Positions 4,938-17,651 of a stretch of DNA of 20,227 nt are shown here, piece after piece. The notes under the pieces are model-generated. The model did no database searches, had not been told where the DNA came from, and worked only from the letters and a program-made list of their open reading frames with translations. Each line of letters begins with the position of its first letter. Position 1 is the first letter of the stretch. A program made the position numbers and the translations under genes. Origin of the DNA: a virus; the IMG/VR virus record IMGVR_UViG_3300013372_002355, positions 1 through 20,227 of that record. One strand, given 5' to 3'.

Positions 4938-7382
4938 TTATAGTGTTGACCTATCTTTAATATTTCTATCTAACATTTGTTGGTTTGTCATATCACTTGA
5001 TACAACATAAGTTTTAATTGGTGCTTGTTGTGTTGCCAATGTTGTTTGTAATTGAGAAAATGCTTGGTCAGTTGAAAATGAACCAATAGCAAGTCCTCCA
5101 TCTGCAAATCTCCTTCCCCCACCTATTGCATTTATTGAAGACAATAATGGTTTGAACATTGCTGTAGATTGTGCATTTATTACACTCTCTCCATTTGACA
5201 ACATTGCTGGAACTAAATCACTTCTCCCTGAACCAGGACCACTGACTATTCCACCTAATGCCAATCCTCTTGGTCTTTCTGAAGCCCCACCTCCACCACC
5301 AGGTGATGGAACAGGAGTTTTTAATATATTTGAAACCGCTTTGAAACCAACTAATCCTGTTGCTACTGCTTGTGCAATTGCAAAACCAGGTATTCCTCCT
5401 TGTGGACCTTTACCTGCATTTTTTAATACTGCAGTAATTGCTCCATAAGTATCAATTAAAGATGCGGCGGCTGCTAACGCTTTACCTGCAAAAGTTTGTT
5501 CTCCTAATTCTTGAGCTGCAAATTTTAATATTTGTGATGTTGCTTGTAGAAGTTTTTGTTGGTTGTCAAACTTTTTTTGGTCTATTGCTGCTTGAGCATC
5601 TGCATTTGCTTGTTTTGTCTTGGTATATTCTTCTTCAATTTTTTTTCTTTGCTCAGCAGTTAGTTCTTCATTAGATAATAATTTGGTATAAAATGCCTCA
5701 TCTTGTGCAATTTTATCGTCTAAAATTTTTTGTTGTAAAGCAAAATCATTTTCTGCTGCTTTCATTTTGTCTGCATACTTTTGGTCTGCAGCCATTTTGT
5801 CAGTCTCAGCCGTTTTTAATGCTTTTTCAATATCACTTGCAATTTGTTCGTTATTTGTCTTTTCTACCTCATTTGTCAAAGCATTTCTTTCGTTCTTTAT
5901 TGCCGCTAATCTATTGAGTTCATCTTGTGTTAAACCATCCTTTGTTTGTTCTTTTTCCTTGAGTGCTGTTTCTTCAGCATTCAATAATTCAAATTGTTTG
6001 TCAAACTTTGCTTGTATTGCATTTCTATATTCTTGGCTATCTTCACCATACTTTAATTTTTTTGTTTCAATATCAATATTTAATGTGTCAAGTTCAAGTT
6101 TACCAAACTCTTGGGCTATTTTTAATTTTTCATCAAATGCTTTTTGTCTTGCCTCTTTATCTTTATTTAATTCATCTTCAACAATTTTATTTATTTCATT
6201 TGCTTGTAATTTAGCTTGTTCTATAGTAATTTCTTTGCCTTCATTACGAATTGCAAATTGTTTTTCAAGTGCTGCACGAAGTACTTTTTCATCTGTATCT
6301 GCATTATTCTTTAGATTTTGAACTATTGCATCTTGTTCTTCTTGCCTCCTTTGTTTATCTTTATCTGCTGCTGCTTTATTATCAGCAATTATTTTATCAT
6401 TCTTTTGTTTATTTTTATCTAATTCTGCTTTAGCAGCTTCATCATTTTTCTTAGCTCTATCTTTGTCTGCTTTTTCAATTTCTCTATTAGCTTGCGCTCT
6501 ATAAGCACTAATTAGTTTATTTTTTTCTGCCTCACTTTTAGTTTCATCTTTTAAGATTTCAATTTGTTTTTCTTTGAACTTTTGATTTGCATTTACTTTT
6601 CGTTGAGTGAATTCATCATATAAGTCAGCATTTGCTTCCCAATTTTCTTTTTCCTTTTTTAATCCACTCTCTAGCCCTTCAATGAATTTTTTTTGTTCTC
6701 TTTCTGCCTCACTTGTAATACCAACAAAATCAGTAAACTTATTTATAAGTCCACCAACAAAGTCAGCAACTTTACCTAAACCTGGTATAAGGTTCATCAA
6801 AGCACTTTTCAAACTATCAAAATTGGCTATGAGTGCTCCAACTGCAATTACAATTGCACCAATACCTGTAGCAATAAGTGCTTTACCAAATCCACTTGCC
6901 GCTGTTGAAGCTGCTTTCAAACCAATAGGTAATTTGCTAAAAACTTTTGTTAGACCACCAACTGTGGTCTCATATAATTTAGTAATTCCTGTAGCTTTAC
7001 CAATATTTGATGCTACAAGTTTAATATCATCACCTACTGCTTTGAATTGACCTTTTACATCTTTTAGATTAAATGAAGAAAATATCTTCAATTTATCACT
7101 TGTAGATGTAATTGATGACCCAATTTGACCAATGGGGCCTGGCAACATAGAAAAACTATCAAGTAAATCTTTAGATTTAGCTCTAACCAAATCTAGTTTG
7201 TCTCTATTATCCTTGAGTTGTTCACTGAGATTTTCAAATTCTTTACTACCAATTTCAACTTTGGTAAGCTCAACTTCTAATCTTTTAATTTCTTTACGTA
7301 AATTTTCTGTGCTTTTGACTGCAGAATTTACCTGTTTGTCGTCAACCTTTACATTTACATTTACTGTTGTTTGTGTAGCCAT
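4938..7382 (-). CDS. Tail tape measure protein
   Basis: An 814-residue protein that sets tail length and is ejected with the DNA. A beta-like N-terminus (TTVNVNVKVDDKQV) is followed by a helical region with a hydrophobic, membrane-like segment at about 168-187 (ALIATGIGAIVIAVGALIAN). A very long charged coiled coil runs from about 225 to 640, rich in Lys, Glu, Ala and Gln. A Gly/Ala-rich region and a hallmark C-terminus follow (GGIVSGPG at 710, then SDLVPAMLSNGESVIN at 721-736, then SSINAIGGG). Using the common rule of about 0.15 nm per residue, the tail would be around 120 nm long, which is inference. Its start overlaps the stop of the preceding small gene as TAATG. There is no lysozyme or peptidase domain. 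Short length among tape measures, but complete. The antisense frames over this gene are long only because of its skewed composition. Confidence 0.92.
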   Translation of the reverse strand: MATQTTVNVNVKVDDKQVNSAVKSTENLRKEIKRLEVELTKVEIGSKEFENLSEQLKDNRDKLDLVRAKSKDLLDSFSMLPGPIGQIGSSITSTSDKLKIFSSFNLKDVKGQFKAVGDDIKLVASNIGKATGITKLYETTVGGLTKVFSKLPIGLKAASTAASGFGKALIATGIGAIVIAVGALIANFDSLKSALMNLIPGLGKVADFVGGLINKFTDFVGITSEAEREQKKFIEGLESGLKKEKENWEANADLYDEFTQRKVNANQKFKEKQIEILKDETKSEAEKNKLISAYRAQANREIEKADKDRAKKNDEAAKAELDKNKQKNDKIIADNKAAADKDKQRRQEEQDAIVQNLKNNADTDEKVLRAALEKQFAIRNEGKEITIEQAKLQANEINKIVEDELNKDKEARQKAFDEKLKIAQEFGKLELDTLNIDIETKKLKYGEDSQEYRNAIQAKFDKQFELLNAEETALKEKEQTKDGLTQDELNRLAAIKNERNALTNEVEKTNNEQIASDIEKALKTAETDKMAADQKYADKMKAAENDFALQQKILDDKIAQDEAFYTKLLSNEELTAEQRKKIEEEYTKTKQANADAQAAIDQKKFDNQQKLLQATSQILKFAAQELGEQTFAGKALAAAASLIDTYGAITAVLKNAGKGPQGGIPGFAIAQAVATGLVGFKAVSNILKTPVPSPGGGGGASERPRGLALGGIVSGPGSGRSDLVPAMLSNGESVINAQSTAMFKPLLSSINAIGGGRRFADGGLAIGSFSTDQAFSQLQTTLATQQAPIKTYVVSSDMTNQQMLDRNIKDRSTL

Positions 7383-7554: not shown

Positions 7555-9639
7555 TTAGCATGGAAGTGAACCACAACCACTTTGTAAATTACTAAGCGTC
7601 ACGGTATATGTGAATGGTGGAGATTGTGTATTTCCAAATTGATATTGATAGCCATCATCACCACACCCCCATGTTCCACTCACTCCTGCAGGAACTCTAA
7701 CTTGATATGCCCCAACTGCTGAATTTTGAACACAATTCAAATATTGTGTAGCATCCCAATAATCCCATTGTGTAGTTGGAGTTTGTGAAGGTGTATTTGT
7801 ATTAGTTGGTGTAGTTGTTTGTGTATTTGTTGGAGTTTGCGTTTGAGTTGGTGTTGAAGTATTTGATGGTGAAACTACAGGTGGAGTAATAGAAGGAGTT
7901 GGTGTATTTGTTGTGGTTGGACTATTTGTAGGTGTATTAGTTTGTGTGGGGGTTTGAGTATTTGTAGGACTATTAGAAGGGGTTTGCGTTTGTGTGGGGG
8001 TAATTGTTGGTGTTGCAGTATTAGTTGGTGTAATTGTAGGTGTTAGGTCAATACAATCAGTTCTATATCTGATAATAACAATACCTGAACCACCATTACC
8101 ACCAAGTGCACCTGTTGTTGTTGAACCACCACCAGTTCCACCACCACCGCCACCTGTGTTAGCAGTTCCAGCAAAACCATTTTGAGTTGTGCCAGTTCCA
8201 CCAGTTCCTCCACCTCCAAGACCACCTGAACCAGGATTTCCACCACTATTTCTTCCACCACCGCCACCACCTCCGTAGTAATTAGCGGTTCCATTGATTG
8301 AACTAAGTCTTCCATCTCCACCATTACCTGTGCTATCACCAGTTGCTCCTGATGTAGAAGTTCCACCACCCCCACCACCTGGTCTTGCCACTTGAGTTGC
8401 GCCATTACCTCCATTAGTAGCAAATCCACCAGGTTGTGAACCAGTTCCACCTGCTCCTTGTAATCCTCCACCACCACCGCATCCACCAGCTAAACCATTA
8501 CCAAGAACTCTCGTTCCACCACCACCGCCACCTAACGCAGTCAAACCAAATGCTGTTGAATTTGCACCATTTCCACCTCTTGCATTTACAGATGCAGTTC
8601 CTCCACTACCAATGACAACAGAGAATGTAGAAATAGATGCCGCAGTTGTTCCTGTAATCAATCCACCTGCTCCACCACCACCTGAACCTGTTGTTGTAGT
8701 AATAGTACAACCTGAGTGAGAACCACCAGCTCCACCACCACCAAGAATTAGATATTCAATTGTGTTGTAAGAACCTAATGAAGAAATTGTGAAATCACCA
8801 TTGGATGTGAATGTATGTACTCTATATGGAATTCCACCCTCTGTGATATTTGTTATTGTTCCACCTGTTGCTTGAATGAAACAAGCTGGCGTTTGTGAAG
8901 GAGTAATAGATGGTGTTTGAGTATTAGTTGGCGTTTGAGTTTGAGTATTAGTTGGCGTTTGTGTTTGTGTCGGTGTGCTTGTGTTAGTCAGTGATGGAGG
9001 TGTAGATGTTGGTGTTTGAGTTTGCGTTTGTGTAGGAGTAGAAGTTTGTGTTAAAGTAGGTGTAGGTGTTGTACAAATTACAGGATATGAAATATATGCT
9101 GATGAACTTTGACCTCTTAAAGGATAAGAATACCCACCAAAAGTTTCAGAAGATAAAGTAAGTCCAAGTGATGAACTTGAAGTGGCAAGTCCACAAGGTT
9201 TGTCAGGAATATAATATGTATTATCTCTTGTAATCACCCATACTCTAAAATCAGTAATTGGTAGTTGGAAAGATTGTGCTATTATTGTAAAATAATCTAT
9301 TCCATCATATCTTCCAAATACTGGATAAGATATTCCATTCAATTGGCCATCATTGAAACATCTAATTGTTTCTGCTCTATACCAACCATCATCAAATGTT
9401 CCACCAGTCCAAGAATATAATCTATCATATGTTCCATTGAATGCAGAGTTTGATGCATTTGATATAATAATTTGTCCAGGGCAAATAGGAATTTGTGTGT
9501 TAGTTGGCGTTGGAGTTAAAGTATTTGTAGGAGTTATGGTGGCTGTTGGTGTTGGACAGGCAGTACCAGTTGGTGTCTTCGTCGGTGTATTTGACGGAGT
9601 ATTACTTGGAGTTGGTGATATTTTAATTCTATAAGTCAT
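7555..9639 (-). CDS. Modular Thr/Pro-linked protein with glycine-rich adhesin domain (putative tail fibre/receptor-binding protein)
   Basis: A 694-residue protein built of globular modules joined by Thr/Pro tracts. Order: tract 8-52; a mixed domain 53-188 (SAFNGTYDRLYSWTGGTFDD, then FGRYDGIDYFTIIAQS); tract 189-251; a glycine-rich domain 252-528 opening YRVHTFTSNGDFTISSLGSY, then IEYLILGGGGAGG, and closing GGNGGSGIVIIRY; tract 531-623; and a Cys-containing C-terminal domain 624-694 ending CGSLPC. The opening and closing motifs are those of the glycine-rich domain found in many phage tail adhesins, where polyglycine-type helices pack into a stable body. The gene lies just after the tail-tip genes and follows a related smaller gene by 6 bases. 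It has no signal peptide, as expected for a virion protein. Host-receptor binding is inferred from domain type and position. The extreme composition is in keeping with function, not with frame error. Confidence 0.8.
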   Translation of the reverse strand: MTYRIKISPTPSNTPSNTPTKTPTGTACPTPTATITPTNTLTPTPTNTQIPICPGQIIISNASNSAFNGTYDRLYSWTGGTFDDGWYRAETIRCFNDGQLNGISYPVFGRYDGIDYFTIIAQSFQLPITDFRVWVITRDNTYYIPDKPCGLATSSSSLGLTLSSETFGGYSYPLRGQSSSAYISYPVICTTPTPTLTQTSTPTQTQTQTPTSTPPSLTNTSTPTQTQTPTNTQTQTPTNTQTPSITPSQTPACFIQATGGTITNITEGGIPYRVHTFTSNGDFTISSLGSYNTIEYLILGGGGAGGSHSGCTITTTTGSGGGGAGGLITGTTAASISTFSVVIGSGGTASVNARGGNGANSTAFGLTALGGGGGGTRVLGNGLAGGCGGGGGLQGAGGTGSQPGGFATNGGNGATQVARPGGGGGGTSTSGATGDSTGNGGDGRLSSINGTANYYGGGGGGGRNSGGNPGSGGLGGGGTGGTGTTQNGFAGTANTGGGGGGTGGGSTTTGALGGNGGSGIVIIRYRTDCIDLTPTITPTNTATPTITPTQTQTPSNSPTNTQTPTQTNTPTNSPTTTNTPTPSITPPVVSPSNTSTPTQTQTPTNTQTTTPTNTNTPSQTPTTQWDYWDATQYLNCVQNSAVGAYQVRVPAGVSGTWGCGDDGYQYQFGNTQSPPFTYTVTLSNLQSGCGSLPC
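7771..8049 (-). repeat. Thr/Pro linker repeat tract
   Basis: The longest tract, about 93 codons (residues 531-623 of the 694-residue protein), made of near-repeats such as TPTQTQTPTNTQ and TPTNTNTPSQTP. It links the glycine-rich domain to the C-terminal Cys domain. Coding strand nearly lacks G. Confidence 0.85.
8887..9075 (-). repeat. Thr/Pro linker repeat tract
   Basis: Residues 189-251 of the 694-residue protein, with repeated strings TPTQTQTQTPTS and QTQTPTNTQTQTPTNTQTPS. It joins the first globular domain to the glycine-rich domain. Confidence 0.85.
9484..9618 (-). repeat. Thr/Pro linker repeat tract
   Basis: Residues 8-52 of the 694-residue protein (SPTPSNTPSNTPTKTPT and similar), placed at the N-terminus immediately after MTYRIKI, so the protein begins almost directly with a linker. 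Confidence 0.8.
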
Positions 9640-9645
9640 ATATCA

Positions 9646-10137
9646 TTATGTGCATCCTACGCAATCAGGGTCATCAGTACAATTTGTTATGGATACACAA
9701 GGTTGTATTGTCATACCAGGGTCTCCTGTTGGTGAAACTTCAGAACAAACTCTTGTATTTGCCCCACCTAATAATGTGAGAGTAATAGGTGTTCCAGTTC
9801 CACAAGGTGTATATGTATATTGTAATACACCTGCAGTTTCATTCAAAATTAAATAACATAAACATTGAACTGCACTTGGCGTAATAGATGGTGTAGGTGT
9901 ATTGGTTGCAGTTATTGATGGGGTAAGTGTATTTGTTGGTGTTATTGATGGGGTATTTGTAGGCGTAAGTGTATTTGTTGGTGTTATTGTTGGTGTAAGT
10001 GTAGGGGTTTGTGTTGCAGTTGGAGTTGAACCAGGACATACTGTTGAAGTTGGGGTTTGTGTTGGTGTTATTGATGCAGTCAAAGATGGTGTAGGTGTAT
10101 TTGACGCAGTCGGTGTTGGAGTTTTTGGAAATGGCAT
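9646..10137 (-). CDS. Thr/Pro-rich protein with small Cys-rich C-terminal domain
   Basis: A 163-residue protein whose first half (residues 5-88) is a Thr/Pro tract of the same kind as in the gene at 7555-9639. The second half (89-163) is a compact domain with eight Cys: CLC at 92-94, Cys112, 131, 147, 153, 159 and 162. Visible motifs are [11 protein letters not shown], a GANTRVCSE strand-turn and the ending [11 protein letters not shown]. The density of Cys suggests disulfide bonds in the released particle. It starts one base after the stop of the tail-hub-like gene (TAATATG) and ends 6 bases before the next Thr/Pro protein, so the three are probably co-translated. Likely a short fibre, spike or decoration attached at the tail tip; this is inference. 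I do not recognise the Cys-rich domain with certainty. Confidence 0.7.
9874..10125 (-). repeat. Thr/Pro linker repeat tract
   Basis: Residues 5-88 of the 163-residue protein, with a clear higher-order repeat of about 12-13 codons ([27 protein letters not shown]). It forms the whole N-terminal half. Confidence 0.85.
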
Positions 10138-14472: not shown

Positions 14473-15048
14473 TTATTTTACAGGTTCTTTAATTATATTG
14501 ATTAGGAAGTTTTGTAAGTCAATTCCAAGTTGCGCTGCTGGACCTTTTGGGTCATCAAATGCATTTACAAATACATCAAAACTATCATCATAAAAGTTTG
14601 TAGGTTGAATTCCAAATTTTTGAATTGTTTTTGACATTGCAATTGCAGTTCCTTTAATATTAAATTTCTTAAATCTCCCTCTTATGTCTCTATTTAACCC
14701 CTTTATTCTTATCCAATCCATAAGTGGTTTCAATGGAACATATTTACCAGGTTGTCTACCATCATTTACATATTTCCAATAATTCAACATATTTACTTTC
14801 ATTGTATTTGTTGCTGGGTCAAAAGATACTTGAATTGAATTATATAGTTTACCAGTTTTTTTTTTCATATCTCTAATTCCTTTTTTAGGTCTCTGCCCAA
14901 AATAACCTGGGGCATATGGATATGGTTTTGCCAAATTATTTTTTAATGCCTCTTGAAACATAGTTGCCAATTGTTCCATTGCCTGGTCAAAGTTAGGCGT
15001 AGGCATTTGTTGAAATGAATAAAATTTATATTTAGTTGGAGTTTCCAT
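14473..15048 (-). CDS. HK97 gp10-like neck/tail-completion protein
   Basis: A 191-residue protein. Start chosen at ATG 15048-15046 (METPTKYKF), which overlaps the upstream stop by 17 bases; an ATG at 15090 in the same frame would overlap 59 bases and adds an unconvincing His-rich leader. Features: a helix (FDQAMEQLATMFQEALKNN), a basic loop, TGKLYNSIQVSFD, then YWKYVNDGRQPGKYVPLKPL and a C-terminal helix before FGIQPTNFYDDSF. The arrangement of a central exposed edge (YWKYVNDGR...P) and the ending GIxPxxF resembles HK97 gp10-type proteins that finish the head-tail joint. A run of ten A at 14856-14865 codes for MKKKT within the frame and does not disrupt it. The gene is joined to the next by TAATATG. 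Family call is moderate, by eye. Confidence 0.55.
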   Translation of the reverse strand: METPTKYKFYSFQQMPTPNFDQAMEQLATMFQEALKNNLAKPYPYAPGYFGQRPKKGIRDMKKKTGKLYNSIQVSFDPATNTMKVNMLNYWKYVNDGRQPGKYVPLKPLMDWIRIKGLNRDIRGRFKKFNIKGTAIAMSKTIQKFGIQPTNFYDDSFDVFVNAFDDPKGPAAQLGIDLQNFLINIIKEPVK

Positions 15049-15577
15049 CTGAATTATTATCACAAGGTGGAAACGTTGCATATGGTGCAATACAACGGTT
15101 TATTGCATCAGGAACACGAAGTCTTATTTTACCAGACCACCCATTTACATAATCATCATATGCTTCACCAAATGGGGTCATTTCAACAGGGTAATCCAAG
15201 TCTAAATTACAATAACATTCCATACCTGTTGCATATTTGAGTTGTGCAATTACATCTTTGAGAATGTCTAAAGTATCAGAATATGTGTCAAGTTCATTAT
15301 CAAAGTTCTTTGTATTTTGAATATCCATAATTAAAATGGTGAAATCATAAGTTGTTTCTCTTCCATCTGTTCTTGCGGCTTCAGGTATTACCCACATTGC
15401 AGGGTAAAATGGTGCTTCACTACCAGTATTTTCTTGTTTCAATCTCATTTCAGTTTGATAAATGAGTTGTTCTACATCACCAAATCCCCATGATTGCAAT
15501 TGCTCATGGTAATCTGCCAATTGACGTAGCAAATCCATAATTTTCTTATAGTTGTAATATCCTACTGAATTAGCCAT
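15032..15577 (-). CDS. Putative tail terminator protein
   Basis: A 181-residue mixed alpha/beta protein encoded between the chaperone-like gene and the gp10-like gene. It starts with helices (YNYKKIMDLLRQLADYHEQL), then a strand and Pro-rich turn (APFYPAMWVIPEAARTDG), a strand TTYDFTILIMDIQ, a long helix (YSDTLDILKDVIAQLKYATG) and a C-terminal strand region (GWSGKIRLRVPD) with a Cys-containing tail (CIAPYATFPPCDNNSDGNSN). This order (helix, two strands with an aromatic turn, long helix, strand) is what tail terminator proteins of the gpU type show, and the position next to a gp10-like gene supports it. The stop overlaps the next start. Identification rests on fold pattern and context, not on a motif. 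Confidence 0.5.
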   Translation of the reverse strand: MANSVGYYNYKKIMDLLRQLADYHEQLQSWGFGDVEQLIYQTEMRLKQENTGSEAPFYPAMWVIPEAARTDGRETTYDFTILIMDIQNTKNFDNELDTYSDTLDILKDVIAQLKYATGMECYCNLDLDYPVEMTPFGEAYDDYVNGWSGKIRLRVPDAINRCIAPYATFPPCDNNSDGNSN

Positions 15578-15578
15578 A

Positions 15579-16366
15579 TTATCTTTGTTTCATTTGTTGT
15601 TGAAGTTTTTGAGCCTCTCTTCTTCTCAAATCATTTATGTCTTTCATATATGATAAATAGTTTAGAACAAATACTAATGGATATTTAGTAATTTCTTCAA
15701 TTTTTGTAATATCTTCGTTTGCCAGCGAGACAAGAGTGCCAAACCAGCCCCAAAACTTATCAAAACTAACACTTTCACGAACATCCAAGTCATCTTTACC
15801 ATTAGTTTCAATTTGATGAATAAAGAGCCCCTCAAATTGCCTAGTGAGGTTTTGTCTAAACGAAAAAAAAAACTACTTGCACCTTTTACATACTTTACAG
15901 GTAGTTTCTTAAACTCTTCTGCTTTTGTTTGTAATTGTTTTGAATTATATGGTTTATAGTTTCCATCTTCATCTATTTCTCTATATAGCATTGCCATCAA
16001 GAGTGGTAATTCTTTTTTTTTCTCATATGGTTCTTTGGATAGGTATGTGTCAATATCAATAAACTCACCAAATGTTAAATTGGGTAAGTCTAAGAATTTA
16101 TATCTCTTGTTATTAAATTCAAACTCATTATAGAATTTTTCACTCTCGTCAATTAAAAACTTTGATATTTCTTGAGATACTCTCAGTACTTCTTCAAAAT
16201 CACTATTTTCAATTTCTTCAATTGATAATCCAGTCATGAATGAAAGTATTTCAACCGCAAATTCTCTTTCATCAGTCCAATCTTGGAGCATAGTTAGTTT
16301 TGACCACATCTCAACTGTTGGTTCTTCAACAATATAATCCTTTTCCTTATATCTAAACTTCATCAT
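15579..16366 (-). CDS. Tail-assembly-chaperone-like protein in two frames joined at a T10 run
   Basis: Read straight, ATG 16366 gives a 230-residue product ending at 15674. After residue 168 (GASSFFF) its tail becomes Lys/Leu-rich and unconvincing. A -1 shift in the run of ten T at 15863-15872 joins it to an open frame ending at 15579, giving about 262 residues. The new part reads naturally: FSFRQNLTRQFEGLFIHQIE, then FDKFWGWFGTLVSLANEDIT and FVLNYLSYMKDINDLRRREA. The N-terminal half is acidic and helical (EEPTVEMWSKLTMLQDWTDE) with LPNLTFGEFIDIDTYLS at 94-110. The pair resembles tail assembly chaperones, which in many siphoviruses are made as a short and a frameshifted long form. The shift could instead be a sequencing or assembly length error in the homopolymer, or a real broken gene. 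It lies 34 bases after the large terminase gene and is joined to the next gene by TAATATG. Confidence 0.65.
15863..15872 (-). other. T10 slippery run at frame break
   Basis: The minus strand reads AGT TTT TTT TTT CGT in frame; it contains the canonical T TTT TTT slippery pattern. Slipping one base back gives TTT TCG TTT AGA and the long -1 frame. About 13 bases downstream a 5-bp stem CCTCA/TGAGG (15845-15849 with 15830-15834) could form; it is weak and rather far for a stimulator. Confidence 0.6.
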
Positions 16367-16400: not shown

Positions 16401-17651
16401 CTATCTTATTACATAACTTCCATAACTTGCCTTTTTCTTATATGAATGAAATGCAAGTGCGAGTGATATTACAGTATCATCATGGAACCCATTAGGAGCC
16501 CCATATTTAATCTTTCTTGTCTTGGGTGAGTATTCATATGTAAAAACAGATAGTTCCTTAAAGAGTTCAGGATTGAGTTCTGGTGATGGTAGTTTCAATT
16601 GTTGTTCGTTGAGAGACATTATTAAATCTTCAATTAAATTTTGTTTACTATCTGATGATGTTATGAATGGTTGAATTGATGGATATTGTTTTTTTATTTG
16701 CTCATATAGAACATCACCAATTGAATTTACTTCTGCATAACAAACTGGTCTCCATTTTTTCAATTTGATTAAAAGTTCTGAAACAATTATATCCCAACTC
16801 TTTTGTCTTTCTCTATAAAAATCTACCATCTCACCATCAGAGTTTAATATAGTCAAAACTGTATAGTCAGTTTGTCTACCAAAGTCAAGACCTGCATAAT
16901 ATTTTTTATCTGGTAATTGGGTGGGGTAGTTATGAAGAATTGCATTTGACTTTAGTGATGCAAATACTTCACCACCATCATCAATAAACTCTGCAAGTAT
17001 TTCTTGTTTGTATATTGTTTCTGGAAGAGATTGTTTTGCCTCAATTAGTTCTTCTTGAGTAATATATGGTGTGTCAAATGATGTTGCATGTAATGTTCTA
17101 TATTGTGGATATTCTTCTGAATATCCTCTCATTGCAAGGTTATAGAACCAGTTTCTCCCTTTGGGGGTAGATATGAATAATACTTTTTTTCCTTGAACCA
17201 GTGTTGTTGGTCTCAAAACTGTGTTCCATACTTCATCTTTAATATATGCGGCCTCATCAATTACAAGGTATGTTAAAGTATATCCTCTAAGTGTATCTTC
17301 ACGTTCACCACTTCTAAAATAAAGTATTGAACCATTGATGAATGTTATTGTGAGTTCTGACTTATTGATTGACTTTGTTAGATTTGCACCTGCAATGATT
17401 GTAATAAGTTCATTGAATATTTTCTTGGCTTGAGAGTAAACTGGACTTACCCACATTGAAATGGAACCATTATCTTCTAGAGACCATTTCAATAATAGAT
17501 TTAATGCAGTAAAAGATTTGCCTGCTTGACGACCAAAACACCCAACAACATATTTAACTTGTTTATCAATACAAACATCAATTATTTCTTTTTGTTTTTT
17601 TGTTGGGGTAAATCCTTGAACAGTAATCTTTTTAATCTGTTTGTTCACCAA
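16401..17651 (-). CDS. terL: Large terminase subunit (ATPase and nuclease)
   Basis: A 416-residue protein that packages DNA into the prohead. The ATPase domain shows Walker A GRQAGKS (40-46), Walker B YLVIDEAA (128-135) and the coupling motif STPKG (161-165). The RNase H-like nuclease domain shows YAGLDFG with Asp256, YAEVNSIGD with Glu307, and HDD at 390-392, the expected three acidic positions. Length is at the compact end of the family but complete. The start overlaps the 3' end of the small-terminase gene by 20 bases, so the two are co-translated. The protein should form a ring on the portal during packaging and cut the DNA. No intein or insertion is seen. The call is secure; the packaging strategy (cos or headful) cannot be told from sequence alone. 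Confidence 0.96.
   Translation of the reverse strand: MVNKQIKKITVQGFTPTKKQKEIIDVCIDKQVKYVVGCFGRQAGKSFTALNLLLKWSLEDNGSISMWVSPVYSQAKKIFNELITIIAGANLTKSINKSELTITFINGSILYFRSGEREDTLRGYTLTYLVIDEAAYIKDEVWNTVLRPTTLVQGKKVLFISTPKGRNWFYNLAMRGYSEEYPQYRTLHATSFDTPYITQEELIEAKQSLPETIYKQEILAEFIDDGGEVFASLKSNAILHNYPTQLPDKKYYAGLDFGRQTDYTVLTILNSDGEMVDFYRERQKSWDIIVSELLIKLKKWRPVCYAEVNSIGDVLYEQIKKQYPSIQPFITSSDSKQNLIEDLIMSLNEQQLKLPSPELNPELFKELSVFTYEYSPKTRKIKYGAPNGFHDDTVISLALAFHSYKKKASYGSYVIR

Follow-up and report, generated by a model that had tools for sequence, protein, structure and literature searches.

The window, a complete IMG/VR virus record of 20,227 nt, carries on its minus strand a gene whose coding sequence is divided between two reading frames that meet at a run of ten T. 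Does this break reflect a faulty sequence, a switch in the genome or a gene programmed to give two products, and, in the last case, which products and through which machine? A sequence-only reading had proposed either a programmed -1 frameshift or a homopolymer error in a chaperone-like gene. Our analyses make programmed recoding of the gene almost certain, and we consider it quite probable that this one gene is programmed for two proteins, most likely as a tail assembly chaperone.

Layout of the gene in the window

The recoded gene comprises the following features:

15579..16366, minus strand: entire recoded gene, from ATG at 16366 to the -1 frame stop TAA at 15579-15581; layout kept in 75 clusters of relatives
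15863..16366, minus strand: shared N-terminal part of 168 codons, ending ...SSFFF; profile conserved across all relatives
15863..15872, minus strand: putative slip site T10 with in-frame T TTT TTT; T9 or T10 in 75/75 clusters
15674..15862, minus strand: zero-frame tail, 62 codons plus stop TAG, predicted ending of the short form and dual-coded with the -1 frame; open beyond expectation and under synonymous constraint
15579..15863, minus strand: -1 extension, 94 codons plus stop TAA, predicted C-terminal domain of the long form; continuous in the related records L009 and L010

As the sequence-only reading had claimed, the T10 run on the coding strand joins the zero and -1 frames, and the -1 frame is open from the slip site to its stop. 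The zero frame (16366-15674) encodes 230 aa, and the two frames joined at T10 give a 262-residue fusion. A -1 frame stop (TAG) directly abuts the T10 run in the window, so that the frames can be joined only at the run, and the next gene begins immediately past the -1 frame stop at 15579. An independent start for the -1 part was considered and rejected, as the conserved part starts at the run and is abutted there by the -1 stop in the window. An ATG near the junction occurs in 3/75 clusters and any of ATG, GTG or TTG in 8/75; judged by these start codons, the extension is shown to lack a usable start in nearly all clusters.

By itself, a long T run is not unusual for a sequence of this composition: the window contains five T9 matches, compared to 7.0 expected from dinucleotide shuffles. 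What exceeds chance, judging from the relatives described below, is that the place, frame and length of the run are kept. Two further homopolymers that had been reported to keep frame, A10 (14856-14865) and A9 (16013-16021), were both confirmed in frame. The A10 run lies in a gp10-like gene, and runs of such length are almost absent elsewhere in the genes of these phages.

Relatives and selection on both endings

A first scan recovered seven relatives with 64-71% identity to the window gene, all seven with T10 in the identical place and with both tails identical in length. Larger scans with N-domain profiles and an independent C-domain profile, to which the group of phage P12024 was added, yielded 246 loci with both halves, forming 75 clusters at 90% identity and 24 at 60%; coming from overlapping scans, the 246 loci represent 110 distinct 270-nt slip regions. 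The C half lies in the -1 frame in 75/75 clusters, which reach down to about 25% identity. At the junction, T9 is found in 47 clusters and T10 in 28, never a shorter and never a longer run. The comparison thus shows a conserved two-frame layout with an invariant T9/T10 in the sequenced members, and the family apparently belongs to phages of Bacteroidota.

An uninterrupted long frame was found in four records. L009 carries T11 and a single frame and matches the window at 99.9% identity in the surroundings of the gene, and L139 has T10 in a single frame as a one-T variant of L137 (99.9% identical). In L010 (43% identity), C plus T10 (AAC then T10) lies within a single long frame; at about 5460-5700 of this record, the run is retained, and some 60 codons are open in the frame that corresponds to the short tail, as though slippage with one T fewer now yielded the short form. 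L259, a distant relative, has T7 and an uninterrupted frame. Homologues with one frame and no long slippery run, which the sequence-only reading had named as evidence against programming, were seen only in the very distant L089 and L259. The more distant of these, a GC-rich Hymenobacter homologue at 24% identity, has a single frame and no T run.

These records bear on two explanations at the level of DNA. The first is that the sequence or its assembly is wrong, or that the gene is a pseudogene; the run would then truly have another length and the gene a single frame, as the T11 of L009 and the similar variant pair L139/L137 would suggest. However, the off-frame layout recurs across 75 clusters and also in cultured phages, and selection acts on both frames (see below). 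The T11 of L009 is also less trustworthy, because its gp10-like gene is broken by the loss of 68 bp at about position 1259 (window about 14872-14940), which may be a genuine deletion or a mistake of the assembly. We therefore regard sequence error as refuted as a general explanation by the comparative data and as scarcely credible for this gene, and of the two possibilities raised initially only programming stood, in 75/75 clusters and two cultured phages. In the second explanation, phase variation, replication slippage at the run would toggle individual genomes from one form to the other. Two near-identical genome pairs do differ by a single T, and long runs are mutable; yet the off-frame state is fixed in 75/75 clusters, where a switch should often show both states, and toggling would not serve a chaperone that needs both forms simultaneously. 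Phase variation is thus very improbable.

Under the null model in which only the -1 protein matters, a stop in the zero frame is expected after about 15 codons. The zero-frame tail was instead open for 61 codons on average versus an expected 14.5, with p<0.05 in 40 of 42 clusters, and further clusters outside this first test gave 57 versus 15.5 codons (28/32). The stop-count model was checked on rows upstream and downstream of the overlap, with 550 stops observed upstream compared to 549.6 expected. A stop count inside the overlap is circular, as the first stop is what delimits the overlap, and was left aside; the conclusion rests on the open-length tests.

Synonymous change pointed in the same direction. 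In close pairs, divergence at four-fold sites was 0.40 before the run, 0.16 in the overlap and 0.41 past the zero-frame stop, a roughly 2.5-fold fall over the overlap with a sharp edge at the run, while protein divergence stayed level over the same three segments (0.15, 0.16 and 0.165). At sites that no substitution could turn into part of a stop, divergence was 0.19 in the overlap compared to 0.38 upstream, indicating that stop avoidance is not the whole reason; past the zero-frame stop, the same subset gave 0.22, resting on 32 sites only. Part of the constraint on the overlap could be carried by the nucleotide sequence itself, although a search for a consensus RNA structure gave none. Identity of the zero-frame tail protein was 0.77 versus 0.57 expected by recoding (32/32 pairs, which are not independent). 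Its median charge was +12 versus +8 expected from recoding, and since the basic charge thus mostly follows from recoding, we draw little from it. In an AlphaFold model of the short form, the tail is one helix (residues 158-227) of moderate confidence, and such long helices can be artefacts. With a tail open far past chance and a drop in synonymous change, both endings are under selection, and dual coding of the overlap is shown at the level of sequence evolution. The earlier claim that the 62-residue zero-frame tail does not read like a natural protein was therefore wrong.

While searching the window fusion against annotated phages gave no match, a structure library led to the cultured Nonlabens phage P12024S. 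Its gp38 lies directly after the terminase gene, the same genome position as in the window, and has T9 and an 81-residue -1 extension; P12024L and metagenomic relatives likewise have T9 and a -1 extension. A comparison of profiles between the window family and the P12024 group, covering both sides of the slip, gave a probability of 98.6 and an E-value of 5e-16, and we regard gp38 and its P12024L counterpart as true homologues, alike in T9, -1 extension and place after the terminase. In the annotation, gp38 (L091 23136-23830) is a 175-residue hypothetical protein with the zero-frame end; the -1 extension is left out and no frameshift is noted. It differs from the window gene in its zero-frame tail of 25 residues, and selection on the tails of the P12024 group (16-25 residues) was sought and not detectable. 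As the tail is short there and shows no detectable selection, the long version is a feature of the branch of the family that includes the window. The Flavobacterium phages 2A and 6H were set aside as having no bearing on the T switch, since 2A has one frame and the local change by which 6H differs involves no long T run. The same gene is annotated at 191 residues in 6H (L092 10352-10927) and at 293 in 2A (L090 5644-6525), a difference that stems from this local sequence change, possibly another frame switch or an error.

The product as a candidate tail assembly chaperone

Three genes of the window are relevant to the identity of the product:

16401..17651, minus strand: terminase large subunit, neighbour (phrog_2, 1.6e-50; Pfam Terminase_6N, 8.6e-17)
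14473..15090, minus strand: HK97-gp10-like tail completion or neck protein, neighbour (phrog_5, 2.7e-5)
4938..7382, minus strand: tape measure protein, expected partner (phrog_25241, 3.5e-15)

Several matches, each below curated or usual significance, converge on a chaperone. Pfam PF10109 (Phage_TAC_7) matched weakly in 7 of 41 members (best E 0.0056, below the Pfam cut-off) and did not match the window protein itself, and PHROG tail families ("tail protein") gave weak matches in 17 of 41 members. Among solved folds, the HK97 chaperone 2ob9 was the best for the N-domain and came first in both rankings, as a weak match (Foldseek E 2.3; Z 4.5 over 74 residues, rmsd 3.5; runner-up Z 3.2). Beyond it, the structure lists gave no clear match, from which no exclusion follows, and a sequence search of the PDB returned none. 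The uninterrupted homologue L010 was modelled by AlphaFold with a pLDDT of 91.5; in this model, the slip falls in the middle of a helix (160-179), so that the two products would share their fold up to there and differ beyond.

Genes of G/GT-type tail assembly chaperones typically, though not obligatorily, lie between the major tail and tape measure genes. The recoded gene has its frames offset by -1 at a conserved slippery site, as expected of this type (75/75 clusters), but it lies elsewhere: it adjoins the terminase and neck genes, and about 8 kb separate it from the tape measure gene. This unusual position, together with the weakness of the family matches, would fit another head-tail or packaging protein with two forms. 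Against such a protein, which we consider unlikely, Pfam TAC_7, the PHROG tail families and the HK97-chaperone fold all agree, and no other chaperone candidate was seen in the window. The chaperone-like nature suggested earlier thus stands on weak, convergent matches in spite of the gene position; a tail assembly chaperone is the probable identity of the product, which would work like those of the G/GT kind and is likely, though not proven, to belong among them. Elsewhere in the window, three predicted proteins (2-607, 7555-9639 and 9646-10137) are rich in repeated Thr-Pro (TPTPTNTPTPS-like), and L010 encodes a similar protein in the same operon.

In the proposed mechanism, standard reading would yield the 230-residue short form, and a fraction of the products would enter the -1 frame at T10 to give the 262-residue long form. 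The two would have 168 residues in common and separate endings read from one stretch of about 190 nt. By analogy with lambda gpG/gpGT, the short form may bind the tape measure protein and the C-domain of the long form may recruit the major tail protein.

RNA polymerase or ribosome

We infer that the long form arises by slipping, which could take place in either of two machines. Slippage of RNA polymerase would place one extra U in some mRNAs, whereas in programmed ribosomal -1 frameshifting on U_UUU_UUU the mRNA would keep its templated length; the two products would be the same and the level of control different. An in-frame T TTT TTT, the X XXY YYZ type of heptamer used by ribosomes, is present in every member (83/83 loci examined), and a ribosomal shift would work on it too. 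Tail chaperones usually shift ribosomally, those of P2-like phages on T6G, T7G or T7C without a hairpin (PMC3091744, PMC3931495). However, seven T are enough for a ribosome, yet the run is never below nine, and other heptamers have never replaced it despite large divergence. The run occurs in two codon phases across clusters, and phase-1 members retain both T flanking the heptamer although the next residue varies (Y, S, F, L, W).

Stimulatory RNA structures are common in ribosomal -1 frameshifting but not obligatory, and P2 has none. The remark that the window lacks a convincing stimulator holds: 20 sequences searched for a consensus RNA structure gave no consensus pairs, single-sequence folds were no better than shuffles (z-scores -0.2 to 1.1), and Rfam returned no match for a stimulator.

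A conserved A/T homopolymer of about 8-9 or longer, as expected for transcriptional realignment, is found at the junction in 75/75 clusters. The critical run length in bacteria is usually nine (PMC1088944), and the RNA polymerase of E. coli is more prone to slip on poly-T, with insertions about three times as frequent as deletions (PMC6260861), matching the type and direction found in the T9/T10 family. Other genes of these phages contain three T8-T10 runs versus 6.4 expected and nine A8-A10 runs versus 37.6 expected; across 42 representative loci, runs of at least seven T and at least eight A are depleted in their coding sequence compared to codon shuffles. High mutation rates at runs would also explain this depletion, and several T of the run are already fixed by dual coding alone; both points count against the polymerase argument. 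Taken as sequence evidence, the poly-T strand, the direction of insertion, runs of at least nine in two phases and the missing stimulator favour polymerase slippage, which we hold to be somewhat more probable than otherwise as the main route; ribosomal frameshifting is plausible but less likely, and both routes acting jointly, or another one, would be improbable.

Significance and comparison with known systems

Should RNA polymerase be the machine that slips, tail-assembly proportions would be set at transcription. Whichever machine slips, gene finders truncate such proteins, as with that of P12024S, and this phage and its host offer a laboratory system for testing the switch. This widespread family retains a T9/T10 that other genes of these phages avoid, with both frames beyond it selected, and the long dual-coded tail poses a new question, the role of the short form's own ending.

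Ribosomal recoding is classically illustrated by frameshifted tail chaperones, and there are precedents for each element taken singly: the recoded chaperone, the poly-T slip site and the slipping polymerase. What is new is a broad family whose T9/T10 switch is invariant, a selectively maintained zero-frame ending of about 60 residues and the probable use of polymerase slippage by a tail chaperone. Neither a polymerase-slippage tail chaperone nor a comparable selected zero-frame ending was found in openly licensed PubMed Central papers. The combined reading, a large family of Bacteroidota-phage chaperones that sets the ratio of its forms by polymerase slippage on T9/T10 and has two selected, overlapping C-termini, is a tentative one that we put at slightly under even.

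The closest mechanistic parallels, Shigella mxiE and insertion-sequence genes (PMC1088944, PMC5009743), likewise have overlapping frames and gain a longer product through an extra nucleotide at a T9/A9-type run; their proteins are unrelated, and transcriptional slippage has been demonstrated there, whereas we infer it in the window family. Phage P2 gpE/E+E' (PF10109) also makes a -1 shift on a T run, TTTTTTG in P2 and T7G or T7C in relatives, with no downstream hairpin (PMC3091744, PMC3931495), but the window family always has T9/T10, and its N-domain of 168 residues compares to a whole E protein of 91. Lambda gpG/gpGT (HK97 2ob9) resembles the window gene in its single start, in a -1 shift that accounts for two products and in a C-terminal extension confined to the long form. 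Its sequence has no detectable similarity to the window protein, its slip site is GGGAAAG instead of poly-T, and the window gene differs from it in the roughly 60 selected zero-frame codons and in its place beside the terminase gene. The length of the zero-frame ending likewise sets the family apart from the SEA-PHAGES chaperones, with about 186 nt from slip to stop compared to a mean of 26 nt (PMC10885494).
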